The notes under the pieces are model-generated. The model was not told where the DNA came from and did not search any database. It saw nothing but the letters and a program-made list of their open reading frames with translations. From positions 1 through 46,408 of IMG/VR virus record IMGVR_UViG_3300022221_000002: a stretch of 46,408 nucleotides of DNA; one strand, 5' to 3'. Positions within the stretch are counted from its first letter, which is position 1, and the number at the start of each line of letters is the position of its first letter. The stretch comes from a virus. Below, in pieces: positions 11,215 through 30,509 of the stretch. Made by a program: the position numbers and the translations under genes.

Positions 11215-12030
11215 TTATGAAAAATACTCTTTTAAGTATTCTTCCTCAGTCATCTTTGTAGTCCTAAGTATTGTCCTCATAATTGACAACTCCTCTTCAG
11301 GAAGATCACTAGCACTATATTTTGACTTTGTTTTCCTTGTTGTAGTTCGCTTACCTGTTTCAACTGAATTAGGGGCTTGTCTACGTGTATTTTCAAACTT
11401 ATCTGGACGTACTTTCTTTATTTCTTTACTAACATAAGAATAGGCATCTTTTAAATCCTTATCAGGATTATTATTCATATATGCAATACCTAATCCATCT
11501 GCTAATATACGTAATTCACTATCGTCTTCATACCACTTATTATTCTCTACCCAAGTATCAAAGATTGGATTATCATCCTGTTTTTTTACATCTTCTTTCT
11601 TACTACCTTGTTTAGCATCTAATATTTGTTCATCAATCTCAACTACTGTATCATAATCCTCATTTTCGAGGGCTATCTTTTTAGCATCTTTTAACTCTTT
11701 TATAACTTTCTTACGTTCATCTTCTCGTATCCTGTCTTGATACTTAGTAAGGTTCTCAACATCCCCCTGTGCCCGTTTTACTTGTCGTTTTAGAGAATGT
11801 ATATCATCATAAAGTTTTTGACGATCTATGAACTCTTCGGCAGATAAATTACGTTTTCCTTCTACTCCCTCTGGATTCCAACCAGATTCAATTGCTGCTA
11901 ACTCTATTTCAGAATATTCTTTCTCTTGTTCTTCTGAGCTACCATCTTCCTGTTCTTCTTCCAGATTTAGTAACTCTTCTTTACTTGGAATTACTACTTC
12001 CTCTTCTTCTGTTTGACTCTCTTTAGTCAT
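11215..12030 (-). CDS. Scaffolding protein
   Basis: This 271-residue, very acidic and largely helical protein has a Glu-rich N-terminus and a coiled-coil-like middle (about residues 70-150, SLKRQVKRAQGDVENLTKYQDRI). The C-terminus is basic and helical (TTRKTKSKYSASDLPEEELSIMRTILRTTK), as expected for the capsid-binding helix-turn-helix of scaffolds. It lies between the portal and the capsid genes, the canonical location. The first 8 bases overlap the end of the GroES-like gene. There is little direct sequence conservation, so the call is mainly from composition and context. Confidence 0.75.
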   Translation of the reverse strand: MTKESQTEEEEVVIPSKEELLNLEEEQEDGSSEEQEKEYSEIELAAIESGWNPEGVEGKRNLSAEEFIDRQKLYDDIHSLKRQVKRAQGDVENLTKYQDRIREDERKKVIKELKDAKKIALENEDYDTVVEIDEQILDAKQGSKKEDVKKQDDNPIFDTWVENNKWYEDDSELRILADGLGIAYMNNNPDKDLKDAYSYVSKEIKKVRPDKFENTRRQAPNSVETGKRTTTRKTKSKYSASDLPEEELSIMRTILRTTKMTEEEYLKEYFS

Positions 12031-17778: not shown

Positions 17779-17824
17779 ATGCACTATTTTGGTGCATATA
17801 AAGATAAAGGCCATAGATATGGCC
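17779..17824 (-). promoter_or_regulatory. Two hairpins in the leader of the packaging mRNA
   Basis: ATGCAC/GTGCAT (17779-17784 with 17792-17797, 7-base loop) and GGCCATA/TATGGCC (17809-17815 with 17818-17824, 2-base loop) are perfect inverted repeats. They lie between the late promoter at 17967-17995 and the first packaging gene. They could stabilise the mRNA or act as protein-binding sites. Confidence 0.45.
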
Positions 17825-17966: not shown

Positions 17967-17995
17967 ATTATACCATGAATCAATTATAATTGCAA
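17967..17995 (-). promoter_or_regulatory. Sigma-70-type promoter for packaging and structural operon
   Basis: On the minus strand, TTGCAA (-35) is followed by 17 bases and a perfect TATAAT (-10). It sits 216 bases upstream of the first packaging gene, and CATGG precedes the -10 as in three other promoters of this phage. It probably drives the long late operon together with the promoter at 18536-18564. Confidence 0.7.
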
Positions 17996-17999
17996 GCTT

Positions 18000-18500
18000 T
18001 TATTTGTCAAATTTATAATCTCTAATAAAATCAGCTATCTTCCGATGCTCTATTTCCGTCCCATCATTCTTAATTCTGTTGGCTCTCCATGAGATAATGG
18101 CTATATTGTTTAAATTATAGTCACCTGATGGGTCTATTTTATCTATTGAAGGTGAATCCTCTCTTCTACTGAACCCTACAGAACCTGTCCCTAGATAATT
18201 AAGAGTTATCCCCAGTATAGGACACTCTTCTGGTATCTCCCTATTTTCTAAGAAGTATATTATATCCTTTGATGAAAGTCCCTTATTCTTTAACATCTTA
18301 TTTGTCCAGTAATACTTAGGTTCTTTATCCACTAGTTTATTCTTACGCTTACGTAGAGGAGTACTTATACCAAACTTAGTAAGTACCTGATATATACGTT
18401 GTTTTGATACTTTGTAGTGCTTACCTATCTCCTGAAGGGTAACACCTTCTGAAAGCATTGTGTTTATATTATCTACTTCTTCAGCCCATATTATTTTCAT
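18000..18500 (-). CDS. HNH-type homing endonuclease with N-terminal HTH
   Basis: The product is 166 residues. A helix-turn-helix (LQEIGKHYKVSKQRIYQVL, about 22-40) is followed by a C-terminal nuclease-like region with CPILGITLNYLG, SPSIDKIDPSGDYNLNNIAII and SWRANRIKNDGT. This is the pattern of small phage HNH endonucleases that recognise RIDxxxGY-N-NV-ISWRAN. It stands alone with its own strong promoter just upstream and marks the leftward edge of the regulatory region. It is probably selfish DNA. Confidence 0.85.
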   Translation of the reverse strand: MKIIWAEEVDNINTMLSEGVTLQEIGKHYKVSKQRIYQVLTKFGISTPLRKRKNKLVDKEPKYYWTNKMLKNKGLSSKDIIYFLENREIPEECPILGITLNYLGTGSVGFSRREDSPSIDKIDPSGDYNLNNIAIISWRANRIKNDGTEIEHRKIADFIRDYKFDK

Positions 18501-18535
18501 ACAATCTCCGATTAAATTTAATACCTTACCCTTAT

Positions 18536-18564
18536 ATTATACCATGCTGGAGAGTAAATGTCAA
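18536..18564 (-). promoter_or_regulatory. Strong sigma-70-type promoter (leftward)
   Basis: A perfect TTGACA, 17-base spacer and perfect TATAAT lie on the minus strand, with CATGG ahead of the -10 and ATAAGG after it. It is 36 bases upstream of the HNH gene at 18000-18500. Transcripts could continue into the packaging operon. Confidence 0.85.
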
Positions 18565-18589
18565 GATATATTTACATTAATTCTGAAAA

Positions 18590-18606
18590 GCATAGATATA
18601 CTATGC
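18590..18606 (-). terminator. Hairpin terminator, leftward
   Basis: GCATAG/CTATGC form a perfect 6-bp stem with a 5-base loop, followed on the minus strand by TTTTC. It lies just upstream of the promoter at 18536-18564. It would stop leftward transcripts starting in the regulatory region and insulate the late promoter. Confidence 0.45.
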
Positions 18607-18627
18607 ATTAGACACTCAGTTCGATCC

Positions 18628-18679
18628 GCCCTAGGGACGGTCAAGGTCAGTTCGATGAAGTCCCTACCGTCTGTAGGGC
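18628..18679. other. Long imperfect hairpin (12 bp paired)
   Basis: GCCCTA then GACGGT (18628-18641, two unpaired bases between) pair with ACCGTC and TAGGGC (18666-18679). This gives two 6-bp helices separated by a symmetrical 2x2 internal loop, with a 24-base apical loop. It may be a structured RNA element or a protein-binding cruciform. Confidence 0.5.
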
Positions 18680-18687
18680 TATAGGAA

Positions 18688-18715
18688 TCCTTTGCTCTCC
18701 AAAGGAGTGCTTTGG
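18688..18715 (+). other. Two mutually exclusive hairpins
   Basis: TCCTTT (18688-18693) can pair with AAAGGA (18701-18706), or CCAAAG (18699-18704) can pair with CTTTGG (18710-18715). The arms share bases, so only one can form, as in attenuators. No leader peptide was found, so regulation is speculative. Confidence 0.35.
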
Positions 18716-18797
18716 AAATTATTGTAGCGTCACAAGGACAGTATAATCGATATTTCGCCCCGCCCGCCCTTTGGTCTCCCACCCCCTTGCCCTGCCA

Positions 18798-18807
18798 GTC
18801 CTTGGAC
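18798..18807. promoter_or_regulatory. GTCC-N2-GGAC palindrome
   Basis: GTCCTTGGAC lies within the longer inverted repeat AGTCC-TT-GGACT, 22 bases before the first sigma-54-like element at 18830. It is a candidate operator or activator site. Confidence 0.4.
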
Positions 18808-18829
18808 TTCCTTTCTAATGGTCAATAGC

Positions 18830-18845
18830 TGGCACGATTATTGCT
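18830..18845 (+). promoter_or_regulatory. Sigma-54-like promoter element 1 (rightward)
   Basis: TGGCACGATTATTGCT matches the sigma-54 consensus TGGCACG-N4-TTGCW at every fixed position, with GG-N10-GC spacing. It would start transcription near 18856 toward the early genes. It overlaps head-to-head with the leftward element at 18848-18863. Confidence 0.55.
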
Positions 18846-18847
18846 AA

Positions 18848-18863
18848 TGCAAATACTATGCCA
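18848..18863 (-). promoter_or_regulatory. Sigma-54-like element 2 (leftward, facing element 1)
   Basis: On the minus strand it reads TGGCATAGTATTTGCA, keeping TGGCA, TTGC and GG-N10-GC. With element 1 it forms a 34-bp imperfect palindrome. The pair may be convergent promoters or two half-sites of one dimer-binding site. Confidence 0.45.
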
Positions 18864-18873
18864 TTGTAAGACT

Positions 18874-18894
18874 GTCCGAGGACTGTCCAAGGAC
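18874..18894. promoter_or_regulatory. Two adjacent GTCC-N2-GGAC palindromes, 11 bp apart
   Basis: GTCCGAGGAC (18874-18883) and GTCCAAGGAC (18885-18894) have an 11-bp period, about one helical turn, and abut the sigma-54-like element at 18895. The helical phasing suggests cooperative protein binding on one DNA face. Confidence 0.5.
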
Positions 18895-18910
18895 TGGCAC
18901 GATCCTTGCT
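18895..18910 (+). promoter_or_regulatory. Sigma-54-like promoter element 3 (rightward)
   Basis: TGGCACGATCCTTGCT is another full match to TGGCACG-N4-TTGCW with GG-N10-GC spacing. It follows directly after two phased palindromes and faces element 4. The predicted start is near 18921. Confidence 0.55.
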
Positions 18911-18912
18911 AT

Positions 18913-18928
18913 TGCAATAAGTATGCCA
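18913..18928 (-). promoter_or_regulatory. Sigma-54-like element 4 (leftward, facing element 3)
   Basis: On the minus strand it reads TGGCATACTTATTGCA. The spacing to element 3 (2 bases between) is the same as for elements 1 and 2, so the region contains a duplicated 34-bp palindromic unit with a period of 65 bp. Confidence 0.45.
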
Positions 18929-18951
18929 AGGACTGGCCAAGGGCTGGTAAA

Positions 18952-18966
18952 TGAGAATGATTCTCA
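18952..18966. promoter_or_regulatory. Fur-box-like palindrome
   Basis: TGAGAATGATTCTCA is a perfect 7-1-7 inverted repeat. It matches the Fur-box 7-1-7 consensus TGATAATnATTATCA except for one symmetrical base pair, and it is the variant often seen in gammaproteobacterial Fur boxes. It lies 24 bases right of sigma-54-like element 4. Binding by host Fur would link early transcription to iron. This is inferred from sequence only. Confidence 0.5.
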
Positions 18967-19050
18967 CTCTCTTTTAGTATTCAATGGATTACTTGAATAG
19001 CGGCTAATATCCCACCGTCAAAACAATGACATAATGATACACCCAGAACC

Positions 19051-19083
19051 GTCAATTGGTTGACACCATGACGGTCAATTGAC
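19051..19083. promoter_or_regulatory. Two GTCAA/TTGAC palindromes
   Basis: GTCAA-N4-TTGAC (19051-19064) and the perfect GTCAATTGAC (19074-19083) lie side by side; a third with a 1-base spacer is at 19325-19335. They flank the leftward sigma-54-like element at 19085. Candidate operators. Confidence 0.45.
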
Positions 19084-19084
19084 A

Positions 19085-19100
19085 AGCAATTATCATGCCA
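19085..19100 (-). promoter_or_regulatory. Sigma-54-like element 5 (leftward)
   Basis: On the minus strand it reads TGGCATGATAATTGCT, with GG-N10-GC spacing and intact TTGCT. No facing partner is present. It would direct transcription toward the late arm and run into the hairpin at 18590-18606. Confidence 0.45.
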
Positions 19101-19121
19101 TAACTTTCATATCCCTTGTAA

Positions 19122-19144
19122 GGCTCTTAGATCGTCTCTAAGCC
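19122..19144. other. Hairpin in the control region
   Basis: GGC and TTAGA (19122-19131, a 2-base bulge between) pair with TCTAA and GCC (19137-19144). There is no U-run, so termination is unlikely. Role unknown. Confidence 0.3.
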
Positions 19145-19206
19145 ACTAACAGCCTAAACCCATACAAAGGCCTAGGCTGACCATAGATCGTGGAAAAGCC
19201 TATAGT

Positions 19207-19222
19207 TGGCACGATACTTGCT
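19207..19222 (+). promoter_or_regulatory. Sigma-54-like promoter element 6, closest to early genes
   Basis: TGGCACGATACTTGCT matches TGGCACG-N4-TTGCW completely. The predicted start near 19233 lies inside a hairpin (GGGGAA 19224-19229 with TTCCCC 19243-19248) and gives a leader of about 145 bases to the first early gene at 19380. Confidence 0.55.
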
Positions 19223-19324
19223 AGGGGAAAGTACTATCACCATTCCCCCATATAAGGAATACATAGACATAAACTAAACTTATGCCTCATAAATATTACT
19301 CGGGTAAGTTTACTTGATATTCTT

Positions 19325-19335
19325 GTCAAATTGAC
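19325..19335. promoter_or_regulatory. GTCAA-A-TTGAC palindrome before the first early gene
   Basis: This is the third copy of the GTCAA/TTGAC inverted repeat. It lies 45 bases upstream of the first early start codon. A repressor bound here could block elongation into the early operon. Confidence 0.4.
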
Positions 19336-19379
19336 GACAATATAATCATACAATGACACAAACAAGAGGACATACAGAC

Positions 19380-19595
19380 ATGATTGATACATATTACAAA
19401 TTGTTAGTTAAAAGCCCCAAAGAAGGGGAAAAATATTCTATAACATTTATAGACTTTGAATTATATATGGATACTCTCTCTAAATGTGAAACAATGGGGT
19501 TAGAGGTACTAGAAGCTTCAGCAGGATATAAAATAACCGTCAGTAAATATGAATTACATGGGTCTGGTATTAATCTTGATGGTCTAGGGATATAA
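19380..19595 (+). CDS. Hypothetical early protein, 71 residues
   Basis: The ATG at 19380 is chosen because AAGAGGA lies 10 bases before it; the ATG at 19353 has no site. The product (MIDTYYKLLVKSPKEGEKY...) is a small mixed alpha/beta protein without metal or membrane motifs. It is the first gene of the rightward arm, a position typical of host-takeover proteins. I do not recognise it. Confidence 0.6.
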   Translation: MIDTYYKLLVKSPKEGEKYSITFIDFELYMDTLSKCETMGLEVLEASAGYKITVSKYELHGSGINLDGLGI

Positions 19596-19643
19596 GCTAC
19601 TATCATCATCGTGGCCACTAACTAAATGAAAGAGGGTAAAATC

Positions 19644-19955
19644 ATGTTAGATAAAACACAATCAACAGATCGTATAGCTGAAAAGGTTAAATTTATAAAC
19701 CAATACAAAAAATTCGTTAGTAATGGCTTTCAAAAGAAGCATTTTCCTAAATGGTTTTATGTCAGATTGTCAATGACGTTTGGACATATCGCCCACTATA
19801 ATCAACAGGGATTTTATGACTATTGGTTTGACAGTGAGGAAAATAAACAGCAGTTTATTGAACAGCATAAAAAATGGCCTTGTTATGGTGAGCCTGAATA
19901 TACTTATAGTGATGCTGAAAATGAAATTAGAGAATGGCTTTATCAGAGGGGGTAA
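19644..19955 (+). CDS. Hypothetical early protein, 103 residues
   Basis: The ATG at 19644 has GAGGG 9 bases upstream; an ATG at 19626 lacks one. The product is rich in Lys, Phe, Tyr and Trp (KKFVSNGFQKKHFPKWFYVRL, QQGFYDYWFDSEENKQQF) and looks like a compact helical protein. No catalytic motif is visible. It is likely one of several small early proteins acting on the host; function unknown. Confidence 0.6.
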   Translation: MLDKTQSTDRIAEKVKFINQYKKFVSNGFQKKHFPKWFYVRLSMTFGHIAHYNQQGFYDYWFDSEENKQQFIEQHKKWPCYGEPEYTYSDAENEIREWLYQRG

Positions 19956-19959
19956 AATT

Positions 19960-20091
19960 ATGAAACATGATTATATACAAGAATGCAGACAACGTGACTA
20001 TGTGAAGGAACGTAAGACAATGACAGGATTACTTGCATTAGCTGTATTATTGAGTATACTGTCTATAGTTGTATGTGAAAATTATCTATAA
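19960..20091 (+). CDS. Small single-span membrane protein, 43 residues
   Basis: This short gene begins at an ATG preceded by GAGGGGG. The product has a charged cytoplasmic-like N-terminus (MKHDYIQECRQRDYVKERK) and one hydrophobic helix of about 20 residues (MTGLLALAVLLSILSIVVC) near the C-terminus. It starts 4 bases after the previous stop. It may act at the inner membrane during takeover or lysis control. No family is recognised. Confidence 0.65.
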   Translation: MKHDYIQECRQRDYVKERKTMTGLLALAVLLSILSIVVCENYL

Positions 20092-20104
20092 GAGAGAGGT
20101 TATT

Positions 20105-20308
20105 ATGAACAGAAAACCAGAGAAAGGTGATACAATATACAATACCCTTACAGGTGAAACTTGGAAGTGCCACCATACTAGGGATAATGTATGTTATTCA
20201 CAGGCAGATGAAAGTAAAGATAACAGATGTTTTATATATTGGTTTGAGTCTGATAAGGACTTTAATCAGATACATGTTATTATTGAAAATGGAGAATTAA
20301 AGCTATGA
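20105..20308 (+). CDS. Hypothetical protein, 67 residues
   Basis: It starts at the ATG at 20105, after GAGAGG. The sequence RKPEKGDTIYNTLTGETWKC with later aromatic strands suggests a small beta-barrel (SH3-like) protein, but this is an impression. The stop overlaps the start of the GP88-like gene (ATGA), so the two are coupled. Confidence 0.6.
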   Translation: MNRKPEKGDTIYNTLTGETWKCHHTRDNVCYSQADESKDNRCFIYWFESDKDFNQIHVIIENGELKL

Positions 20309-20931
20309 TACATACAAAGAAACAAGCTGAACAAATAGCAGGTACACTGTCTAAACCGTCCAAGATGCCTTGCAAGGGTACGTCCATACCTGCCATACAT
20401 TGTAATGTAGGTAGCAAGCTACGTGATATTGAAGGGTCAGTCTGTGCTGATTGCTATGCTATGAAGGGTAATTATCAATTCAAGGGAGTACAACTAGGCC
20501 TAGAGCGTAGACTGGCAGGTATTAATAGTCCCCATTGGGTAGAGGCCATGACTGTATTGATAGGTAAGGACAAGTATTTTAGATGGCATGACAGTGGTGA
20601 TATACAGAACTACTATCACCTTTTACAGATAGTCTCAGTCTGTGAGAATACGCCCAATACTAAACACTGGCTACCTACTAAAGAGAAGGCCATAGTAAAC
20701 AGATACTTACGTGAGAATGGTAAGTTCCCACCTAATCTGGTAGTACGATTGTCAGCTTACATGGTGAATGGTAAGCCACCTAAATGGGCAGGACTATTGA
20801 CAAGTACGGTACATAATGGTAATGTACATAATGGTCGTGAGTGTATAGCGTACAAGCAGAACGGTGAATGTAAGGAGTGTCGGGCTTGTTGGGATAAGAG
20901 GGTAAAGAATGTGTCTTATCCGAAACATTAG
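20305..20931 (+). CDS. GP88-like phage protein (Cys-rich)
   Basis: The product is 208 residues. Features of the phage GP88 family are visible: an early Cys cluster (MPCKGTSIPAIHC), VCADCYAMKG (about 46-55), FRWHDSGDIQ (about 92-101), WLPTKEKAIV and a C-terminal cluster (ECIAYKQNGECKECRACW). The Cys arrangement suggests bound zinc or an iron-sulfur cluster. The biochemical function of the family is not established to my knowledge. It is usually found among early genes, as here. Confidence 0.75.
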   Translation: MIHTKKQAEQIAGTLSKPSKMPCKGTSIPAIHCNVGSKLRDIEGSVCADCYAMKGNYQFKGVQLGLERRLAGINSPHWVEAMTVLIGKDKYFRWHDSGDIQNYYHLLQIVSVCENTPNTKHWLPTKEKAIVNRYLRENGKFPPNLVVRLSAYMVNGKPPKWAGLLTSTVHNGNVHNGRECIAYKQNGECKECRACWDKRVKNVSYPKH

Positions 20932-21016
20932 ATAAAAGGTTGTAATAAGTAAATAGTGTCTGGTTACATGGGTTTATATCAATTAAGAAGACAGTTTTGT
21001 CAAGAGGAGAGTTATA

Positions 21017-21199
21017 ATGGCTATATACCGGTGCGATGAATGTGAACAGTCATTCGATAATGACTGGCATGTATGTAGGATAGTGAAGTATGGTGATTTG
21101 AATGTACCCTATACAATCTGTCCTACGTGTGATGAAAAACTGTTTCCAGAGTATGATGAGGAGGATGATTATTATGGCACAGTCAATAACATCAGCTAA
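21017..21199 (+). CDS. Small zinc-ribbon protein, 60 residues
   Basis: C6-x2-C9 and C35-x2-C38 (CDECEQSF ... CPTCDEKL) form a two-knuckle zinc ribbon, followed by an acidic tail. A GAGGAG ribosome site precedes the ATG. Its 3' end overlaps the methyltransferase start by 26 bases. It is likely a protein or nucleic acid adaptor; partner unknown. Confidence 0.7.
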   Translation: MAIYRCDECEQSFDNDWHVCRIVKYGDLNVPYTICPTCDEKLFPEYDEEDDYYGTVNNIS

Positions 21200-21674
21200 A
21201 ACTAGCCTTAATCAAATACCTGCCCTACATAAATGGTTTGTTAAACAATATAATAAACCTCAAACTATATTAGATTTTGGGTGCGGTAAGTATGATAAGG
21301 GTATGGAATACCTTGAAGAACATGGTCATATTGTATGGGGGTACGATCCGTATCATCAGCCAGAGTATTACAATCAAATACTATTACAGCAAGATACAGA
21401 CTATGATGCTATACTATGTGCTAATGTATTGAATGTAATACAGGATGAACTTGACATACGTAATGCATTGAATTTAATAAGTAATTTAAGTAATATGGCT
21501 TTCTTTTCTATATATGAGGGAGATAAAACAGGCATAGGAAAGGAAACTACCAAGGGGTATCAGCGTAATGAGAAGATACATGAATATGTAAAATTAATAA
21601 AAGAGTTTTATCCAACAGTATTTAGACAAGGTAATATTATTATTGCAATGAAGGAGAATGAAGATGAAAATTAA
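21174..21674 (+). CDS. Class I SAM-dependent methyltransferase-like protein
   Basis: I use the ATG at 21174 because GAGGAGG precedes it. The 166-residue product has motif I ILDFGCGKYDKG (about 32-43), then HIVWGYDPYHQPEY for the ribose-binding acidic strand and ILCANVLNVI as motif IV-like. The protein is short, with no target-recognition domain, so the substrate (DNA, RNA or small molecule) cannot be predicted. No NPPY or SPPY motif is seen, which argues against a standard DNA amino-methyltransferase. Confidence 0.75.
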   Translation: MAQSITSAKTSLNQIPALHKWFVKQYNKPQTILDFGCGKYDKGMEYLEEHGHIVWGYDPYHQPEYYNQILLQQDTDYDAILCANVLNVIQDELDIRNALNLISNLSNMAFFSIYEGDKTGIGKETTKGYQRNEKIHEYVKLIKEFYPTVFRQGNIIIAMKENEDEN

Positions 21675-21930
21675 TAAGCTATTGAAAGAAGTACTAGGTA
21701 ATAAATTTTTTACAGTGAAGTATGTAAAGAAAGATGGTACAAGGCGTGTGGCATGTGCTAGACTAGGTGTGACTAAGGGAGTGAAGGGCACAGGTAGTAA
21801 ACGTCCTGATAACATAGTCACGTACTATGATGTGAATAAGAAGGGGTTTCGGTCATTCGACTGGAATAGGGTTGAACGTATTACACAAGGTAACTTCACT
21901 ATTTTTGGTGAAGGTTTAAAGATTATCTAA
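21664..21930 (+). CDS. DUF2693-like (Sm/SH3-fold) small protein
   Basis: The ATG at 21664 has AAGGAG 7 bases upstream. The 88-residue product contains FFTVKYVKKDGTRRVACARLGVTKGVKG, then a disordered turn and GFRSFDWNRVERI. This is the pattern of the phage DUF2693/WYL_2 Sm-like family. Nucleic-acid binding is plausible. It overlaps the methyltransferase by 11 bases. Confidence 0.65.
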   Translation: MKINKLLKEVLGNKFFTVKYVKKDGTRRVACARLGVTKGVKGTGSKRPDNIVTYYDVNKKGFRSFDWNRVERITQGNFTIFGEGLKII

Positions 21931-21950
21931 TTATATAGAGGAGAACTAAT

Positions 21951-22712
21951 ATGAAAGGTCTAATGTTACATTGTGGTGCAGAAGTAATTAGTAGGGATGA
22001 ACTAGGTATGTTACCTATCCCACCATCTAAGGGAAGTCGTCATGTTATACGTCCATTTATTGAGGACATTGAATTGATAACAAACTTACTTGGCCGTAAT
22101 GGACTATCCCTGAAGTCAGAGGGGTATGGTGTTAAACATAAGGAGGGCGTACCAGCTCAGTTCTTTGGCCTTATGGAGGTTGAACTGGAGGGTGACTATC
22201 TTGGCAGGGATTATGGCCTTACAATCGGTCTGAGAGGCTCCTATGACCAGACCTTAACACGAGGTATGGTAGTGGGTAGTAACATATTCGTATGTGATAA
22301 CCTGTGCTTCAGCGGGGAGATCGACATACGTACTAAGCAGACTACCTTTATAGGTCAGCGTATTAAAACTATTATGATTGATGCGGTTAGTCGTATACCT
22401 GCCCTTGCCATACGTCAGGATGAGAAGTTTACACGCTATAAGGAGGTTGATGTAGGTCGTGATGGTGTCAATGATACTATTATTGAGATGGTCAGGGATG
22501 GTACACTTAACCCTAGTCATGTAGGTAAAGTACTTAAGGAGTGGGATACACCTAAGCACCCTGAACATGCCCAGTATGGTCATAGTGTGTGGAGATTCCA
22601 CAATGCAGTAACGGAAGCTATCAAGCCTACTGACCAAGGGAGAGCTAATGTCCTGAATGTAATGGATAGGACTATTCCATTGACACTGGCATGTGACAGG
22701 TTGGCGGCTTAA
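21951..22712 (+). CDS. DUF932-like phage protein
   Basis: The 253-residue product has the central GMVVGSNIFVCDNLCFSGE (about 104-122), typical of DUF932 proteins found on phages and plasmids. It also has a helical C-terminal half with SVWRFHNAVTEAIK. The family has no firm function. An AGAGGAG ribosome site lies in front. Expression is expected early with its neighbours. Confidence 0.7.
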   Translation: MKGLMLHCGAEVISRDELGMLPIPPSKGSRHVIRPFIEDIELITNLLGRNGLSLKSEGYGVKHKEGVPAQFFGLMEVELEGDYLGRDYGLTIGLRGSYDQTLTRGMVVGSNIFVCDNLCFSGEIDIRTKQTTFIGQRIKTIMIDAVSRIPALAIRQDEKFTRYKEVDVGRDGVNDTIIEMVRDGTLNPSHVGKVLKEWDTPKHPEHAQYGHSVWRFHNAVTEAIKPTDQGRANVLNVMDRTIPLTLACDRLAA

Positions 22713-22743
22713 GAAGTACTATCACTAAACGAGGAGACAGACA

Positions 22744-22935
22744 ATGAAAGCATGGCGTAATAAACCCAATGCAAAAGAAGAGAGGAAGAAGGCTGAATGG
22801 GAGGCTTTTATGATAAGAATGCAACTAAAGACTCCTACTAAGGGAGCAACACCTAACAAGTACAAGCCACATCAGGGAGAACAGGAGAAGGCCAGACGTA
22901 GGAATCGCTATAACTGGCTAGGGGAGATATACTGA
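22744..22935 (+). CDS. Small basic protein, 63 residues
   Basis: It is rich in Lys, Arg and Trp (KAWRNKPNAKEERKKAEWEAF, EKARRRNRYNWLGEIY), probably helical and nucleic-acid binding. A GAGGAG site precedes the ATG, and the stop overlaps the next start by one base. Family unknown. Confidence 0.55.
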   Translation: MKAWRNKPNAKEERKKAEWEAFMIRMQLKTPTKGATPNKYKPHQGEQEKARRRNRYNWLGEIY

Positions 22936-23132
22936 TGAGGGCGGCCATAGAGGAAAATGATTCTATACTGTCAGCAGTCCTAACTGGAGTCTGGAAGGAC
23001 GATACCTACTCTGTAAAAGATAAGATAATGTTTGTATATGGAGTTCAAATGGGTTCTACAGATACTGATACAATAGAAGAATGTAATCTACTTAGAGAAC
23101 TATTATGGGAGAGATATTATGAGCAAGAATAA
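22935..23132 (+). CDS. Hypothetical acidic protein, 65 residues
   Basis: This acidic, largely helical product (MRAAIEENDSILSAVLTGVW ... LLRELLWERYYEQE) starts at an ATG overlapping the previous stop (TGATG). Its 3' end overlaps the DUF7666-like gene by 14 bases. No recognisable domain. Confidence 0.55.
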   Translation: MRAAIEENDSILSAVLTGVWKDDTYSVKDKIMFVYGVQMGSTDTDTIEECNLLRELLWERYYEQE

Positions 23133-23808
23133 AGGAACACTATCATGGCACTTTGCAAGCGCAGATAGAAAACTAAGATATGGAGACGGACGGTTAATTG
23201 AACAAGGCGTAGTCCATAAGATAGAGGGTAAGCCTATATTATGTAGTCATGGCCTACATGGGTCTATAAGGGCTATAGATGCTCTTAGTTATGCACAAGG
23301 ATCTGTAGTATCAAGAGTAATAATCAGAGGCGATATTACTAAAGGCGAGAATAAACTAGTAGGACAAGAGAGAGAGTACTTATGGGTAGTAGATGCTGAA
23401 GAAACTTTAAGGGAATTTTCAAGGTGGTGTGCATTACAGGTTATTCATTTATGGGATGCTCCTGCTGTAGTAGTTAGATACCTTAAAACAGGTGATGAGA
23501 GTATTAGGGCTGCCGCTAAGGATGCCGCTTGGGCTGCCGCTAAGGCTGCCGTTAGGGATGCCGCTTGGGATGCCGCTAAGGTTGCCGTTAGGGCTGCCGC
23601 TAAGGATGCCGCTTGGGCTGCCGCTAAGGCTGCCGTTAGGGATGCCGCTTGGGATGCCGCTAAGGTTGCCGTTAGGGATGCCGCTTGGGATGCCGCTAAG
23701 GTTGCCGCTTGGGATGCCGCTAGGGATGCCTTTAATAAGAAAGCAAACCGTAAACTAACCACCATGTTAAACAAATTATATAAGGAGAGTTCTGATGAGT
23801 CGGTGTAA
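23119..23808 (+). CDS. DUF7666-like protein with Ala-rich tetrapeptide repeats
   Basis: The product is 229 residues. The N-terminal domain (about 1-120) has WHFASADRKLRYGDGR, ILCSHGLHGSIRAIDAL and RVIIRGDITKGENKLVGQ, which resemble the DUF7666 module of phage and bacterial hypothetical proteins. Residues 131-202 consist of 18 consecutive four-residue units [A/D/V]-A-[A/V]-[K/W/R], giving an Ala-rich helix with Trp or Lys/Arg every fourth position. The repeats are encoded by near-identical 12-nt units, including one exact 84-bp tandem duplication, so length variation between relatives is expected. Function unknown; the helix could be a rod or a binding surface. Confidence 0.75.
   Translation: MSKNKGTLSWHFASADRKLRYGDGRLIEQGVVHKIEGKPILCSHGLHGSIRAIDALSYAQGSVVSRVIIRGDITKGENKLVGQEREYLWVVDAEETLREFSRWCALQVIHLWDAPAVVVRYLKTGDESIRAAAKDAAWAAAKAAVRDAAWDAAKVAVRAAAKDAAWAAAKAAVRDAAWDAAKVAVRDAAWDAAKVAAWDAARDAFNKKANRKLTTMLNKLYKESSDESV
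23509..23724 (+). repeat. 18 tandem 12-nt coding repeats with an exact 84-bp duplication
   Basis: Units follow the pattern GNTGCCGYTWRG (N and Y mostly A/C/T variants). Units 1-7 (23509-23592) are identical to units 8-14 (23593-23676). The frame is preserved throughout. The mirrored open frame on the minus strand is an artefact of this composition. Confidence 0.95.
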
Positions 23809-23974
23809 AGCGTGTGACGCAGTATTAGAACCTCACGAAATAATCTGGTATCCAGATAGGGGAGAACATGAGACATGTTGTTACAAGTGCCGTAATGCCC
23901 TGTATGAGGATATGGATGAGGATGAATTGGGGATATTGATTGATATTGAACTGGGTAATAAGGAGGATTTATGA
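23795..23974 (+). CDS. Small zinc-finger protein, 59 residues
   Basis: The ATG at 23795 follows AAGGAGAG, and the TGA at 23972 shares an ATGA with the YopX-like start. C4-x2-C7 and a CCYKC cluster (about 31-35) give four to five zinc ligands (RCKACDAVLEP ... ETCCYKCRN), followed by an acidic tail. Similar short T7-like proteins with CKAC and a second Cys pair exist, by memory. It may bind RNA polymerase or nucleic acid. Confidence 0.7.
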   Translation: MSRCKACDAVLEPHEIIWYPDRGEHETCCYKCRNALYEDMDEDELGILIDIELGNKEDL

Positions 23975-24405
23975 GAGAGATTAAATTTAGGGCTTGGGAC
24001 AAGAGGGAGAATAGGTTTGTACACGCAGACTATGAAACAGATCCGTTTGAGATATATCTCGATGGTACTTTTCTTGGTTTAATTGGGCATGAGTGGGAAG
24101 GGGGTGAAAGATTTGAGGTAATGCAATTCACCGGCCTACAAGACAAGAACGGTAAGGACATTTATGAGGGGGATATTGTCCGATTGATACGCGGGGAGGG
24201 TGTTCATACATACGATATGAGCGATCCTAATCCAAACATACGAATAGTTACCTTTCATGGGGAAGATGCCGCTTTCAATCTATACATGATGGATAATAAG
24301 AAGCAGGGTTCTGGATTAACCTTTTGCAAGGGTAACGCTGAAAAAGGTTGTTTTGAAATAATCGGGAATATTTATGAGAACCCTAAGTTATTGGAGGACT
24401 TATGA
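23971..24405 (+). CDS. YopX-family protein
   Basis: The 144-residue protein has the full YopX pattern: MREIKFRAWDKRENRF at the start, VMQFTGLQDKNGKDIYEGDIV in the middle (about 50-70) and CFEIIGNIYENPKLLEDL at the end. The fold is a beta-barrel. The family is widespread in phages and has no established function. The start overlaps the previous stop by 4 bases and the stop overlaps the next gene by 4 bases. Confidence 0.9.
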   Translation: MREIKFRAWDKRENRFVHADYETDPFEIYLDGTFLGLIGHEWEGGERFEVMQFTGLQDKNGKDIYEGDIVRLIRGEGVHTYDMSDPNPNIRIVTFHGEDAAFNLYMMDNKKQGSGLTFCKGNAEKGCFEIIGNIYENPKLLEDL

Positions 24406-24599
24406 CTGACGAAGAACGTATTATCCAGCGATACAAAGACCGGATAAAGAATCCCCTAACAGGTATACGTGCCATGTGTGTTGAATGTATGGGAGGACAG
24501 CCCCAGATGGTCAATAAATGCCCATCCACTTCCTGTGCCTTATATCCATTCAGGATGGGGTCTAACCCATATCATGGAAAATCTAAGAAAACGCCTTAG
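24402..24599 (+). CDS. Small Cys-motif phage protein, 65 residues
   Basis: It carries IRAMCVECMGGQPQMVNKCPSTSCALYPFRMG (split over residues 23-53) with C26-x2-C29 and a second C-x5-C pair, a pattern I know from short phage proteins with a GG-V-x-C core. Probably zinc-binding. It starts in an ATGA overlap with the YopX-like gene. Role unknown. Confidence 0.7.
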   Translation: MTDEERIIQRYKDRIKNPLTGIRAMCVECMGGQPQMVNKCPSTSCALYPFRMGSNPYHGKSKKTP

Positions 24600-24623
24600 A
24601 AATTTATAAAAGTGAGGTATATC

Positions 24624-24731
24624 ATGGATAAGCTACAACTATACAGTCTCATTGACCTACTTGTCATATTCCTATGGGTAGGTTGTTTCTATGGGGTATT
24701 GATATTATTAATTACGTGGAGGAAGGACTAA
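24624..24731 (+). CDS. Small single-span membrane protein, 35 residues
   Basis: The ATG follows GTGAGG. The product MDKLQLYSLIDLLVIFLWVG... has one hydrophobic helix of about 22 residues and a basic end (TWRKD), giving a probable N-out/C-in orientation. Its TAA overlaps the start of the next gene (TAATG). No family is recognised. Confidence 0.65.
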   Translation: MDKLQLYSLIDLLVIFLWVGCFYGVLILLITWRKD

Positions 24732-24943
24732 TGCAACTACAAGACTTATTGAAAGGTCTACTACCTGAATTAACAGATGAAATTAATGTACGGATAGTAA
24801 TAAGGGATGAGTATGGGTGTGTAACACATTATAAGAGAGTCCCTATTTCCTACATTAAAAGTAATGCCCTTGATTCACACGCTCCCCTTGAAATCGCAAT
24901 AGAGGAAGAACATATTATTAATGATGAATGGAAAATCTATTGA
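24731..24943 (+). CDS. Hypothetical protein, 70 residues
   Basis: The ATG at 24731 is preceded by GGAGGAAGG and overlaps the previous stop; a longer reading from 24674 lacks a site. The acidic product (MQLQDLLKGLLPELTDEINV) looks like a small alpha/beta protein. The -35 of the promoter for the replication genes overlaps its last codons. Confidence 0.6.
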   Translation: MQLQDLLKGLLPELTDEINVRIVIRDEYGCVTHYKRVPISYIKSNALDSHAPLEIAIEEEHIINDEWKIY

Positions 24944-24968
24944 CAGCCCCCGACATCCATGATATACT
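24940..24968 (+). promoter_or_regulatory. Sigma-70-type promoter before primase-helicase
   Basis: TTGACA, a 17-base spacer and TATACT give a strong promoter. Around the -10 there is a perfect inverted repeat CATCCAT/ATGGATG (24955-24961 with 24976-24982), a likely operator. The sequence TTGACAGCCC is shared with the promoter at 29819. Confidence 0.8.
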
Positions 24969-25001
24969 ATAAGTATGGATGCCAAGGGGAGGCCAGTAAC
25001 C

Positions 25002-25012
25002 GTCCAAAGGAC
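25002..25012. promoter_or_regulatory. GTCC-N3-GGAC inverted repeat in primase leader
   Basis: This is a variant of the GTCC-N2-GGAC palindromes with a 3-base spacer, downstream of the promoter at 24940-24968. A half site (GTCCAAGG) follows at 25023-25030. It may be the same regulator's site in a middle promoter. Confidence 0.3.
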
Positions 25013-25105
25013 AGTCATAGACCGTCCAAGGTAAGGTAACATACATATATACATTATCTTGTACATATATAATACATGTACATTATTAATGAACAGTGAG
25101 GTATT

Positions 25106-26791
25106 ATGAACAAATCTAAAATAGTAAGGGACATGCCCTGCCCCAAGTGTAGAGAGCAGGGTAGGGATAAGACAGGTAACCATATGATGGTCTTCAGCGA
25201 TAATGGAGGGTACTGTAATCGTTGCGGCTACACAGTGGAGGATGTGGACGGACAATCGGAGGATAATGTAGTGAGTATTAATCAGAGTAATAAACTGTCC
25301 TTGACTGACATTCAGGGTTTCAGGGTAACTGCCCTCCCCTCACGTAAGATAAGTAAGGCCACCTGTGAGGTATATGGGGTTAAGACCTCCTGTAATCAGT
25401 CTACAGGGGAGATTGACAAGCACTACTACCCTATCACTAGGGGTGGTACGATAGTGGCTTACAAGGAACGTGAGATAGCCACAAAGCAGTTTGATGTCAT
25501 ACCAAAGGGTGCTAGTAGAGGGAAGGTGGACTTATTCGGTCAGTCCGTTATGCCACAATCCGGTAAGAAGGTGCTTATTACAGCAGGGGAGGAGGATACA
25601 TTAGCCGCCTATGAGATGCTGAAGGACAAGTACCCTAACAGTCGTCCTGCCGTAGTGTCCCTACCGAAGGGGGAGAATGCCACCAGTGCTGTAGCTGACC
25701 AGTTGGAGTACTTGGAGGGATTTAATGAGATCATCCTGTACATGGATATGGATGAGGCAGGTAGGAAGGCCACTGAAGTACTATCACAGCTTATCGGGGA
25801 GAAGGTCAGGGTAATGAAGACACTGGAGAAGGATGCCAGTGACATGCATACGAAAGGCAAACAAGCTGAGTTTATCAATGCTTACTTCTCTGCACAGGCC
25901 TACAAGCCAGAGGGGTTCGTACAGTTTGAGGATGTCTTTGAGGATGCCACTAAGATGCCAGAGTGGGGTAGACCTTGGCCTTGGGATGAGCTTAATAAGC
26001 TAACCTATGGCCGTAGGGATGGTGAGGGTATATATGTAGGTGCAGGGGTGAAGATAGGTAAGTCTGAGTTTGTCAATCAGATGGCACAGCACATCATTGT
26101 CAATGAGGGCGGTAAAGTGGCTATGTTCAAGTTTGAAGAACAGCCGAGTATGACATACAGGCGTATTGCTGGCAAGATAATGAATAAGCAATTCCATGTA
26201 CCTGATGGGGACTTCACAAGGGATGAACTGATTGAAGGTGTAAACAAGGTAGGGGATTCATTAGTTTGCTTTGATTCCTATATGTCAACTAATACAGGAG
26301 AGCTATGGACACAGCTTAAACCTGCCATACGTCATGCTGTATTGGTGGGGGGGTGTAAGGATGTATTCATCGACCCTATTACTAACCTGACTGATGGACT
26401 AACACCGTCCGAGACAGAGACAGAACTAAGGCGTATTAGTAACGAACTAGCGGCCATGTCCAAGGAGTTAGGCTTCTTCTATTACTGCTTCTGCCACTTG
26501 AAGGCTCCACATACAGGTAAGCCTCACGAGGAAGGGGGTAAGGTACACTCTAATCAGTTCAGGGGAAGTAGAGCTATGATGGAGAAGACATATTACATGT
26601 TGGGTATAGAGCGTAATAAAGACCCTGACAATTCAGAAGTAGTACGTAATATGAGTACCTTTGTATTATTAGAGGACAGGTCATTTGGTAATGCAGGTAA
26701 ATTCAAGGTATACTATGATAATGCAACAGGTTCATACCTTGAGCCAGATGGGGATACATTAGAGAAGTATTATGAGATGGTAGGAGATTGA
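25106..26791 (+). CDS. DNA primase-helicase (T7 gp4-like)
   Basis: The 561-residue product combines both replisome activities. The N-terminal zinc finger uses C12-x2-C15 and C37-x2-C40. The TOPRIM core shows LITAGEEDT (157-165) and MDMDEAGRK (213-221). The RecA-like helicase has Walker A GAGVKIGKS (312-320), DVFIDPITNLTDG as Walker B and the sensor-like YYCFCHLKAP. It unwinds DNA and lays primers for the family A polymerase encoded 600 bases downstream. It has its own promoter and opens the replication block. Confidence 0.93.
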   Translation: MNKSKIVRDMPCPKCREQGRDKTGNHMMVFSDNGGYCNRCGYTVEDVDGQSEDNVVSINQSNKLSLTDIQGFRVTALPSRKISKATCEVYGVKTSCNQSTGEIDKHYYPITRGGTIVAYKEREIATKQFDVIPKGASRGKVDLFGQSVMPQSGKKVLITAGEEDTLAAYEMLKDKYPNSRPAVVSLPKGENATSAVADQLEYLEGFNEIILYMDMDEAGRKATEVLSQLIGEKVRVMKTLEKDASDMHTKGKQAEFINAYFSAQAYKPEGFVQFEDVFEDATKMPEWGRPWPWDELNKLTYGRRDGEGIYVGAGVKIGKSEFVNQMAQHIIVNEGGKVAMFKFEEQPSMTYRRIAGKIMNKQFHVPDGDFTRDELIEGVNKVGDSLVCFDSYMSTNTGELWTQLKPAIRHAVLVGGCKDVFIDPITNLTDGLTPSETETELRRISNELAAMSKELGFFYYCFCHLKAPHTGKPHEEGGKVHSNQFRGSRAMMEKTYYMLGIERNKDPDNSEVVRNMSTFVLLEDRSFGNAGKFKVYYDNATGSYLEPDGDTLEKYYEMVGD

Positions 26792-26792
26792 T

Positions 26793-27029
26793 ATGAAAAC
26801 CAACTGCCTCTTCTGGGCTGTATCACAATGGCGTAAGGAAGGTGGCTACATAGCCTGTAGGCGTACTAAGGCTACTAAGTACGGTATAAGGGGCTGGTGG
26901 TTACACTTCTTCTGGTCAAGGGACGGTAAGGAATGGTATAGTTTTAGTCCTCCAAAGGAAGGTGATATTAGTTGGAGGAAGTATATATTATTGAGGTTCA
27001 AAGGTAAGGTGAGGAAGGGGTTAGACTAA
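26793..27029 (+). CDS. Small basic Trp-rich protein, 78 residues
   Basis: This basic protein has many Trp and Arg/Lys residues (CLFWAVSQWRKEGGYIACRR, GWWLHFFWSRDGKEWYSF), suggesting a compact beta fold that binds nucleic acid or membrane surface. It lies one base after the helicase stop, so it is probably co-translated. Similar short proteins follow phage replication genes, but I cannot assign a family. Confidence 0.6.
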   Translation: MKTNCLFWAVSQWRKEGGYIACRRTKATKYGIRGWWLHFFWSRDGKEWYSFSPPKEGDISWRKYILLRFKGKVRKGLD

Positions 27030-27043
27030 TTAAAGGAGGACAT

Positions 27044-27190
27044 ATGTTCGTAGACAAACTCAAACTAGTAGATGAATTAACAAGCGTAGCCGCATCTTGG
27101 GCTGACTATGGCTCAAGGGCAGTTATTGAGGAGGAGATTAGGGGGGTTGTGGATAAGTACTTACCGTCAGAAGGAGAAGATAATGACTGA
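27044..27190 (+). CDS. Hypothetical protein, 48 residues
   Basis: An excellent ribosome site (AAAGGAGG) precedes the ATG at 27044. The product starts MFVDKLKLVDELTSVAASW and is acidic and helical. It overlaps the following gene by 8 bases. Function unknown. Confidence 0.6.
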   Translation: MFVDKLKLVDELTSVAASWADYGSRAVIEEEIRGVVDKYLPSEGEDND

Positions 27191-27452
27191 AGAAGAAGCA
27201 AAGACTAAGTGGTGTCCGATGTCAGCTAACAGTAAATCATACGCCTCTTTAGCGGCTTTTACTGGATTGTTGGCCTGTAATAAAAGTTATCCTGAAAAAA
27301 TTATAGCGGAAGTATCTGATGCAATCCCAGATAATGCTGAAAAATGTATAGGGTCAGAATGTATGATGTGGAAGGAAGACCGTAGTTTTGGTAAAGACTT
27401 GGGTGGCGGTAAATATAAATATGATGAAGGTTATTGTGGACTAACCAAATGA
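27183..27452 (+). CDS. Small Cys-containing phage protein, 89 residues
   Basis: The ATG at 27183 has GAAGGAG upstream. The pattern KWCPMSANS ... CIGSECMMWKED ... GYCGL matches a family of short phage proteins with a WCP start and a C-x-GS-x-C-x2-W centre, probably zinc-binding. It lies between primase-helicase and polymerase and overlaps the polymerase start. Function unknown. Confidence 0.65.
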   Translation: MTEEEAKTKWCPMSANSKSYASLAAFTGLLACNKSYPEKIIAEVSDAIPDNAEKCIGSECMMWKEDRSFGKDLGGGKYKYDEGYCGLTK

Positions 27453-29371
27453 CCACTCTCATATCTGACATCGAATGCAATGGCTTCTACAATGAAGCCA
27501 CCATTGTCTGGTGTATAGTGTCCAAGGACATTGACACTGGCCATATATATACCAGTGTGCATAATGGAACTGGAAATATGCAGATGGATGAGCATTTGGA
27601 GTTACTGGCCTCTGCTGAGAAGGTAGTCTTCCACAATGGCTTCGGCTACGACAGACCTGTACTCAAGAAACTACATGGCCTTGACCTACGTGTGAATCAG
27701 GTAGAGGATACATTTGTACTGTCCAGTCTCTTCTATCCTGACAGGCAGATTCCCAAGGGCTGTAGTAAAGGGGCACATAGTCTTCAGGCATGGGGTATCA
27801 GGTTTAATTTATACAAGGGAGACCATACTGAATTTGACAAGTATAGTCCTGCCATGTTAGACTATTGTGTAAGGGATGTGGAAATAACAGAGAAGGTATA
27901 CGAGAGACTGTTGAAAGACCGGAGGGAACATGATTGGGAAAAGGCGATTAAACTTGAATATCTTATGGCATCTATTCAATCCGAGCAAGAGATACATGGA
28001 GTCGTATTTGACCATGAGAAGGCGTATGGGTTGGTTGAAGAACTCACAGAAGAAATAGTGAAGATTGAGGAGGAAGTGTTACCTCAGATACCGTCCAAGC
28101 CTAAGCAGGTAGGGGTTACTGTAGCCAAGCCCTTCAAGTTGGATGGTAGTTATTCTAAGATGGTTACGGACTGGTATCCTGAATTAGGGGGAATAAATAT
28201 GTTAGGAGTCTCTGGACAGTTCTGTAGAGTAGAATGGCCTACGATTAACCTGAACTCTGACACTCAGGTTAAGGCCTATCTACTGTCCCAAGGATGGATA
28301 CCTACAGAATGGAACTACAAGAAGGATAAGGCAGGGAAGATTGTCAAGGTCAATGGGGAGCCTGTAAAGACTTCCCCCAAGCTGACTGAAGATTCTTATG
28401 CCTCTGTCAAGGGTGATATACCTCGACTGGTAGCCCGTAGGAATATCCTTGTACATAGGAGGAGACAGGTCTTCAATATAACGAAGCAAGGGGAGTTAAA
28501 GGGATGGCTTAACCTAGTCCGTCCCGATGGCCGTATAGAGGCACAGGGAGTCCCACAGGCCACTAACACTGGTAGGTACAGGCATAAGATTGTAGTGAAC
28601 GTACCGAAGGCTATGGATAAGGTAGTCTATGGCCGACAGATGAGGGAGTTGTTTACTGTCCCTGAAGGTCGTGTACTAGTAGGTACAGATGCTGATGCCC
28701 TAGAAGCCCGTATGGAGGCACACTACTGTTATGACTTTGAGGGAGGACATGAGTATGCTCATGAGTTGATTGATGGTGATGTCCATTCAAAGAATGCACA
28801 GGTCTTTGGTACTGACCGTGATGGAGCCAAGAGTCCTAAGTATGCTTTAACCTATGGCTGTCAAGCCCCTACCTTAGCCGATACATTGGGCTGTAGTAAG
28901 GAGAGGGCACAACTGCTACTGGATAACTTCTGGGCATCTAACACGGCCTTAGCGGGCTTCAGAGAGGCTGTGGAGGCCGAATACAGGAGTAATGGTAAGA
29001 CCGTCCTGAAGGACATGGGACACTATGTACGGAAGGAGACTGTAGGTGGATGGATTGAGGGACTGGATGGACGTAAGATATTCATTAGAAGCCCCCATGC
29101 CTGTGTCAATGCCAAGTTTCAGAGTGGGGGTAGTATTGTAGTGAAGATGGCAACTATATTTATGAACAAATGGATAAAGGAACAAGGACTGGATGCCCAT
29201 CAGGTCATACACATGCATGATGAAATACAGTTTGACTGTGCCGTTAAGGATGTAGAGAGATTGAAGACAATCTGTAAGAGGGCATGGGTAGAGGCAGGTA
29301 AGTACTTTAACCTGAATGTACCTATTACTGGGGATGCACAGGTTGGTAAGTGTTGGGCAGAAACACACTGA
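27449..29371 (+). CDS. Family A DNA polymerase (T7-like, with 3'-5' exonuclease)
   Basis: I choose the ATG at 27449 (ATGA overlap); a GTG at 27434 is an alternative. The 640-residue product has Exo I DIE (7-9), Exo II HNGFGYD (62-68) and Exo III YCVRDVE, then Pol motif A GTDADALEAR (D414/D416), motif B DGAKSPKYALTYG and motif C HMHDEIQFD (around 588-596). Proofreading residues appear intact. It works with the primase-helicase to replicate phage DNA. No thioredoxin-binding insertion is obvious. Confidence 0.95.
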   Translation: MTTLISDIECNGFYNEATIVWCIVSKDIDTGHIYTSVHNGTGNMQMDEHLELLASAEKVVFHNGFGYDRPVLKKLHGLDLRVNQVEDTFVLSSLFYPDRQIPKGCSKGAHSLQAWGIRFNLYKGDHTEFDKYSPAMLDYCVRDVEITEKVYERLLKDRREHDWEKAIKLEYLMASIQSEQEIHGVVFDHEKAYGLVEELTEEIVKIEEEVLPQIPSKPKQVGVTVAKPFKLDGSYSKMVTDWYPELGGINMLGVSGQFCRVEWPTINLNSDTQVKAYLLSQGWIPTEWNYKKDKAGKIVKVNGEPVKTSPKLTEDSYASVKGDIPRLVARRNILVHRRRQVFNITKQGELKGWLNLVRPDGRIEAQGVPQATNTGRYRHKIVVNVPKAMDKVVYGRQMRELFTVPEGRVLVGTDADALEARMEAHYCYDFEGGHEYAHELIDGDVHSKNAQVFGTDRDGAKSPKYALTYGCQAPTLADTLGCSKERAQLLLDNFWASNTALAGFREAVEAEYRSNGKTVLKDMGHYVRKETVGGWIEGLDGRKIFIRSPHACVNAKFQSGGSIVVKMATIFMNKWIKEQGLDAHQVIHMHDEIQFDCAVKDVERLKTICKRAWVEAGKYFNLNVPITGDAQVGKCWAETH

Positions 29372-29401
29372 TTAACACCCCAACGGGGTAAGGAGGTGGT
29401 T

Positions 29402-29578
29402 GTGGCTAGAGCAAGGTTGCATTTGATTTGTGGTAATTGCGGTTGTAATGATGAATGGGAATGGGAGCATATCATTCTCAGTGAAGCAGGGGGAAAGCCA
29501 GAGGATGTATTCTTATACTGCCGCAACTGCGGAACACTTCACTCGATAAATGATAATGCTAAACCCACTAACACATAG
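29402..29578 (+). CDS. Small zinc-ribbon protein
   Basis: The GTG at 29402 has AAGGAGG five bases before it. Cys pairs CGNCGC and YCRNCGT frame a 30-residue acidic turn, giving a zinc ribbon. It follows the polymerase gene by 30 bases and a small CCCC/GGGG hairpin. Function unknown. Confidence 0.6.
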   Translation: MARARLHLICGNCGCNDEWEWEHIILSEAGGKPEDVFLYCRNCGTLHSINDNAKPTNT

Positions 29579-29587
29579 GGAGGGGTT

Positions 29588-29794: not shown

Positions 29795-29818
29795 GCCACA
29801 CAGGAGACAAGAAAGTTC

Positions 29819-29847
29819 TTGACAGCCCATGAAAAACATGGGATAAT
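29819..29847 (+). promoter_or_regulatory. Sigma-70-type promoter with operator-like palindrome
   Basis: TTGACA, 17 bases, then GATAAT. The spacer and the first base of the -10 carry a perfect inverted repeat CCCATG-N5-CATGGG (29826-29842), a probable operator. The -10 region is followed by ATAAGTG as in the promoter at 24940. Confidence 0.75.
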
Positions 29848-30500: not shown

Positions 30501-30509
30501 GTAAGTTAT

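Follow-up and report, generated by a model that had tools for sequence, protein, structure and literature searches.

The central control region of this virus raises the question of whether a phage can place its main divergent switch under the alternative sigma factor of its host, sigma-54 (RpoN), given that phage transcription is usually described as driven by sigma-70 or by a phage polymerase. The window, i.e., the whole stretch of DNA analysed, is one entire virus record of 46,408 bases and is organized in two gene arms. The + arm (19353–38400) encodes GP88, WYL_2, a T7-like primase/helicase and a family A DNA polymerase, as well as a T7-type endonuclease I, a ribonucleotide reductase and a band-7 protein, and the − arm encodes the terminase, the portal, the capsid and further late genes. 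The late operon (−, starting at 18500) and the replication operon (+, starting at 19353) flank a non-coding gap (Table 1), into which the switch point of the GC-skew profile also falls. The DNA polymerase has its best matches in Zobellviridae (31–35% identity), and the best matches of the terminase are unclassified phages. Among phage isolates, no DNA homologous to the control region was found, nor any homologous to an array from another virus. Elsewhere in the window, a T7-type 5′–3′ exonuclease (30666–31960) is apparently interrupted by an HNH endonuclease gene (31141–31602), and the protein encoded at 23119–23808 combines a weak DUF7666-like part with a subsequent stretch of near-identical repeats rich in alanine (AAWDAAKVAVRDAA...).

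Table 1. Features of the control region and its surroundings, in window coordinates
Feature	Position	Strand	Remarks
Control region, non-coding, between divergent operons	18501–19352		852 bp; ORF list and skew profile
Sigma-54 element 1, TGGCACGATTATTGCT	18830–18845	+	Predicted start ~18856
Sigma-54 element 2, TGGCATAGTATTTGCA	18848–18863	−	Opposite element 1, gap 4; predicted start ~18837
Sigma-54 element 3, TGGCACGATCCTTGCT	18895–18910	+	Predicted start ~18921
Sigma-54 element 4, TGGCATACTTATTGCA	18913–18928	−	Opposite element 3, gap 4; predicted start ~18902
Sigma-54 element 5, TGGCATGATAATTGCT	19085–19100	−	Unpaired; predicted start ~19074
Sigma-54 element 6, TGGCACGATACTTGCT	19207–19222	+	Unpaired, closest to replication operon; predicted start ~19233
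FleQ/FlrA-type box, GTCAATTGGTTGAC	19051–19064		Exact GTCAA-N4-TTGAC; 0.0005 expected in gap
Weaker second FleQ-type match, GTCAAAACAATGAC	19017–19030		1 mismatch
Fur-type palindrome, TGAGAATGATTCTCA	18952–18966		0 in 4,000 shuffles of gap
NtrC-type site, TGCACTATTTTGGTGCA	17780–17796		0.05 expected in 46 kb
Sigma-70 promoter match into left arm	18536–18564	−	12 of 12, extended −10
Sigma-70 promoter match, late/structural arm	17983–18010	−	12 of 12
Replication arm gene 1	19353–19595	+	Probable start 19380, after AGAGGA; family searches without match
Left arm gene 1, HTH and endonuclease VII/HNH-like protein	18000–18500	−	ORF list and family searches

The first-pass annotation had placed six sigma-54-like elements in this gap, and their coordinates, strands and letters proved correct throughout. 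All six keep GG-N10-GC, and four of them form the two described 34-bp pairs (18830–18863 and 18895–18928), with a period of 65 bp and 83% identity over 35 nt. The six elements are the only occurrences of TGGCAY-N5-TTGC in the window and lie within 393 bp, whereas dinucleotide-shuffled versions of the window (300 in total) contained 0.11 on average and never more than 2, so that a chance origin is rejected. The same motif with spacers of N2–4 or N6–8 does not occur in the window. In a position-weight scan of both strands of the 46 kb, the elements scored 14.5–15.3 (maximum 15.3) and the next best site 13.5; the annotation would have been refuted by a motif equally frequent in coding DNA, and the weighted scan found no comparable site outside 18830–19222. 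None of the elements overlaps a coding sequence, and all lie inside the divergent gap. The feature is, therefore, real and non-random. The second pair is flanked by repeats of CCAAGGACTGGC spaced in tandem at 11 bp (18793–18807 and 18876–18948), and a 15-nt inverted copy without mismatch lies 77 nt upstream.

The extended sigma-54 consensus carries Y before TGG, R after CAY and W after TTGC. All six window elements have R after CAY and W after TTGC, and 817 sites in related contigs show T/C, G/A and A/T at the three positions, respectively; a slight bias arises because the contigs were retrieved through some of these sites. The core of the elements corresponds to that given for sigma-54, TGGCACN5-7TTGCT (PMC12316311). 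The sigma-54 reading is thus supported at the sequence level, including positions that were not fixed, and the six elements are very probably sigma-54 recognition elements, with binding itself being an inference.

Convergent pairs had been regarded as particularly unusual, which is not borne out. A scan of viral contigs for TGGCACGATNNTTGCT returned at least 120 stretches. The face-to-face pair pattern, scanned separately, occurs in at least 120 viral contigs, against one match for a wrong-spacing (N6) control; bacterial and archaeal genomes gave 19 matches in 257 Gb (gaps of 3–7 only). The pair-bearing loci fall into 56 unrelated sequence groups when clustered by single linkage (70% identity across 300 bp). 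Over all fetched loci, TGGCAY-N5-TTGC occurs 332 times, about 120 of these by selection, compared with at most 20 occurrences at any other spacing. Of 151 distinct pairs, 147 have their TTGC and GCAA separated by 3–8 bp (mode 4) and the remainder by 10–12 bp. Pairs favour divergent gaps between genes, with 39 divergent and 7 convergent cases (random, 10 and 5). Some pairs in other phages are flanked by genes that are co-directional or convergent, so that one of the two elements would be read antisense. Pairs also occur in arrays that repeat every 41–47 bp, and in six loci (L216, L221, L230, L235, L242 and L245) three to four face-to-face pairs follow one another, mostly at 47-bp intervals. A LuxO-type pattern, TTGCA-N3-TGCAA, was considered, since TTGC..GCAA forms between paired −12 boxes, and was rejected as a by-product of pairing because spacings of 2–5 were all enriched to the same degree.

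The reading of each pair as two separate convergent promoters is corrected here to one predicted bidirectional promoter, because the −12 boxes point inwards and the predicted starts fall inside the opposite element. A pair might instead constitute the operator of an unknown phage-encoded protein, with a half-site that resembles a sigma-54 promoter by coincidence. The predominance of short gaps, which means that the halves are not independent, and the operator-like appearance of the arrays are compatible with such an operator. The gap nevertheless varies by more than half a helical turn (3–12 bp), which is not expected of a dimer site; half-sites often stand alone or in tandem (116 tandem and 103 back-to-back neighbours); and the half-site fits the full sigma-54 consensus, unsearched positions included. 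Moreover, boxes of known sigma-54 activators adjoin the elements, and the arrangement is shared by all 56 unrelated groups. We consider the operator reading improbable, and the related suggestion of the first-pass annotation, that each pair is a single dimer-binding site, is disfavoured on the same grounds.

The repeats could also be iterons of a replication origin, or form a DNA or RNA hairpin, with no role in transcription. This fits a repeat-rich region at the GC-skew switch point and a minimum pair gap of 3, as a hairpin loop requires. The skew switch, however, coincides with the gene-strand switch and does not discriminate, many elements are unpaired and oriented, and the control region has no match to an RNA family (Rfam) and no tRNA. 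The N5 spacers of paired elements are less complementary than those of shuffled partners (0.286 vs 0.360, sd 0.017), which disfavours a hairpin. An origin or hairpin is thus hardly tenable as an explanation.

Sigma-54 promoters remain the preferred reading, and the unpaired sites show the orientation that promoters would have. They tend to lie outside ORFs and are directed at the following gene in a ratio of 127:41 (random positions, 56:44). In another 46-kb virus record (G024), 11 sites are confined to one strand, several of them 37–95 nt before a gene start. Many of the motif-selected contigs encode distant homologues of the primase, polymerase, terminase, portal and GP88 proteins of the window, and the trait therefore spans a broad T7-like assemblage, although not all of it. 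Several points count against the sigma-54 model: three loci (L333–L335) have no elements; the terminase relatives show no overall enrichment, with only two close ones (L125 and L145) holding several elements in the equivalent gap; some pairs are not divergent; and about one-quarter of the unpaired sites point away from the next gene. Two loci, L058 and L087, contain dense same-strand sigma-54 arrays with many interleaved copies of the palindrome CTGCCATTTTGGCAG, possibly the site of another regulator.

Profile searches of the record detected no single-subunit RNA polymerase, sigma-54 or sigma-54 activator, and PF00158 and PF04552, which would reveal a phage-encoded AAA+ activator or sigma-54, had zero matches in it. 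A phage-encoded activator was therefore discarded as a candidate; two sub-cut-off AAA+ matches occur in other records only. In the absence of such genes, transcription of this phage most likely runs on the host polymerase.

Motifs that resemble binding sites of host regulators were found in and near the control region. The Fur box is a 7-1-7 palindrome of the TGAtAATgATTaTCA type, and TGAGAATGATTCTCA agrees with this generally known consensus at 13 of 15 positions. GTCAATTGGTTGAC matches 11 of 12 letters of the FleQ consensus, which comprises the inverted repeats GTCAAT and ATTGAC, 2 nt apart (PMC10723142, PMC6120874). There are no binding data for either motif. The assignment of TGCACTATTTTGGTGCA, located 1,050 bp from the nearest element, as an NtrC site is only suggestive and rests on its letters alone.

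An unbiased count of dyads around the pairs, with the sigma-54 elements masked, ranked TGAGAA-N3-TTCTCA first among dyads with 6-letter arms and the NtrC-type TGCACC-N5-GGTGCA next; we take these to be the Fur and NtrC patterns, respectively. GTCAA-N4-TTGAC was likewise enriched. Within the same loci, 14 Fur motifs were found near the clusters and none elsewhere, compared with 18 and 3 for NtrC (5-letter arms) and 15 and 6 for FleQ, in 152 kb near the clusters and 1,090 kb elsewhere. Wrong-spacing controls near the clusters gave 0 for Fur and NtrC and 0–6 for FleQ. Counted by sequence group, the motifs near clusters amount to 6 for Fur, 6 for FleQ and 2 for NtrC; with only two groups, the NtrC signal is deep but concentrated in few lineages, L283 alone having 7 boxes. 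The window was among the discovery loci and contributed one FleQ and one Fur box near its cluster, and the enrichments are independent of it. The co-occurrence of the elements with activator boxes is an observation, not an inference. FleQ ChIP peaks contain Fur boxes together with IHF and sigma-54 motifs (PMC6120874), so that Fur and sigma-54 motifs keep the same company there as around the phage clusters. The 80 terminase relatives, few of which have sigma-54 elements, contain no NtrC box within one mismatch. Fur-type palindromes occur in some terminase relatives that lack sigma-54 clusters (L147, L202, L204, L136, L137 and L139), so that Fur sites may be widespread in phage DNA in their own right.

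Sites were also found in isolated phages. Pseudomonas phage vB_PpS_SYP (OQ183418) has 9 sites, 6 of them non-coding, and none for a reversed-pattern control. Its pair at 11959–11992 has a gap of 4 and Fur-like palindromes close by, as in the window, and differs in lying between co-directional genes of a 107-kb genome. Vibrio phage D260 has 8 sites inside 4.5 kb. Five Vibrio Zobellviridae (MG592619, MG592578, MW865292, MG592660 and OX241572) each carry an element on the strand of the DNA polymerase match, with a perfect TGTGA-N6-TCACA box no more than about 165 bp away. These represent approximately four independent cases, because MG592578 and MW865292 share one site, and OX241572 is less clear, its element being surrounded by an annotated run of very short + ORFs. 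Vibrio Zobellviridae such as Vibrio phage 1.253.O (MG592619) resemble the window in their T7-like replication genes and in an element on the replication strand of a divergent control region, and differ in having a single element and a perfect CRP box in place of the FleQ and Fur boxes. Perfect CRP-type boxes are present in all five genomes and, in addition, in the Vibrio phages MW824407, OX241435, MG592629 and OZ195864, at 1–3 per genome and mostly in control regions, with none in the non-Vibrio phages tested. No CRP box was found near the metagenomic clusters. Roseophage SIO1 and the Klebsiella, Alcaligenes and Roseobacter phages examined have no sigma-54 sites.

Based on these observations, we favour, with reasonable confidence, a model in which the pairs are bidirectional promoters for host sigma-54, gated by host activators; promoter activity is untested, and the presence of rpoN in the host is unproven. 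Host RNA polymerase carrying sigma-54 would recognise the six elements and bind each pair in either orientation, probably not both simultaneously, transcribing toward the replication operon (+) or the structural operon (−). One holoenzyme per pair would be the simplest geometry for the four predicted starts, and the single elements at 19207 (+) and 19085 (−) may serve as additional unidirectional promoters. Bacterial bidirectional sigma-70 promoters likewise start on opposite strands from overlapping face-to-face elements; the window pairs differ in being sigma-54 elements, for which an ATP-hydrolysing activator is required. Because the searches revealed no phage gene for an RNA polymerase, sigma-54 or an activator, a host enhancer-binding protein would be needed to open the complexes for both arms. 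This would most likely be a FleQ/FlrA-type protein at 19051 (and 19017), possibly NtrC acting from 17780; the identity is inferred, and we put FleQ/FlrA forward only tentatively. The Fur-type box at 18952 would bring iron control. Any dependence on the motility, nitrogen or iron status of the host is likewise inferred.

The two arms differ in their sigma-70 promoter matches. Perfect matches were found only on the left arm, which thus need not depend on sigma-54, and the best match for the replication arm reaches only 9 of 12, at 19314. A stronger sigma-54 dependence is consequently predicted, as an inference, for the replication genes than for the left arm. Strong matches on the late/structural arm and only a weak one on the replication arm are the opposite of the usual early/late expectation.

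The sigma-54 holoenzyme forms stable closed complexes that are inert without an activator. The cluster could thus act as a decoy that sequesters sigma-54 holoenzyme, FleQ, NtrC and Fur, in which case replicating phage DNA with many strong sites would damp the motility and stress genes of the host. Tandem pairs every 41–47 bp are more densely packed than independent promoters require, sites for several unrelated regulators coincide at one spot, some pairs lie outside divergent gaps, and the phage has no activator of its own, all of which a decoy would accommodate. A decoy has no need, however, for unpaired sites that face the downstream gene, for pairs that favour divergent gaps, or for 11 sites strung along one strand ahead of genes, and we regard this explanation as unlikely, although it carries more weight than an operator or an origin.

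Promoters dependent on host sigma-54 would place the window beside several known systems. Bacterial sigma-54 promoters, such as those controlled by NtrC at glnA and by FleQ at flagellar operons, have the same TGGCAC-N5-TTGC core and GG-N10-GC, with activator boxes nearby. The window sites, in contrast, are clustered in the central control region of a phage without an activator gene in its genome, and the phage sites form face-to-face pairs with a 3–8 bp gap. Host-regulator sites in phage DNA are already known as a kind from cyanophage PHO boxes, through which host PhoBR controls phage genes upon phosphate starvation (PMC10976474). Both systems, in the window by inference, tie phage transcription to a nutrient regulator of the host through host-type sites; PHO boxes involve cyanobacterial PhoB and single genes such as pstS, and the window would combine an alternative sigma factor and several regulators at the main divergent switch. 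The open-access literature searched yielded no account of phage operons driven by sigma-54 promoters, which is weak evidence of absence. Among related reports, one protein of phage Q19 is weakly called as sigma-54-like (PMC7693777), Bdellovibrio phage phi1422 has a gene for a sigma-54-type regulator (PMC3391216), and two operons of the Fels-2 prophage were down-regulated in wild-type Salmonella relative to an rpoN mutant (PMC3844500). Salmonella lacking rpoN is phage-resistant by an indirect route that involves glutamine and RpoS (PMC8744999). The sigma-54 form, the paired geometry and the breadth of the trait appear to be undescribed in that literature.

The same arrangement in many unrelated viruses suggests that phages read host physiology via the host's own regulators. 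It is conceivable, although we would not yet wager on it, that in a broad set of host-polymerase phages the central switch consists of sigma-54 bidirectional promoters with NtrC, FleQ/FlrA, Fur and, in Vibrio, CRP boxes, and that infection is gated by the nitrogen, motility/c-di-GMP, iron or carbon status of the host and not by a phage regulator. The model is directly testable, since the sites are present in Vibrio and Pseudomonas phages available as isolates, and the motif may help to predict uncultivated phages of rpoN-bearing hosts. If the model is true, a sigma-54 switch that is silent until an activator hydrolyses ATP would allow a phage to be kept quiet or reprogrammed by host physiology, and would help to explain why the outcome of infection depends on nutrients.
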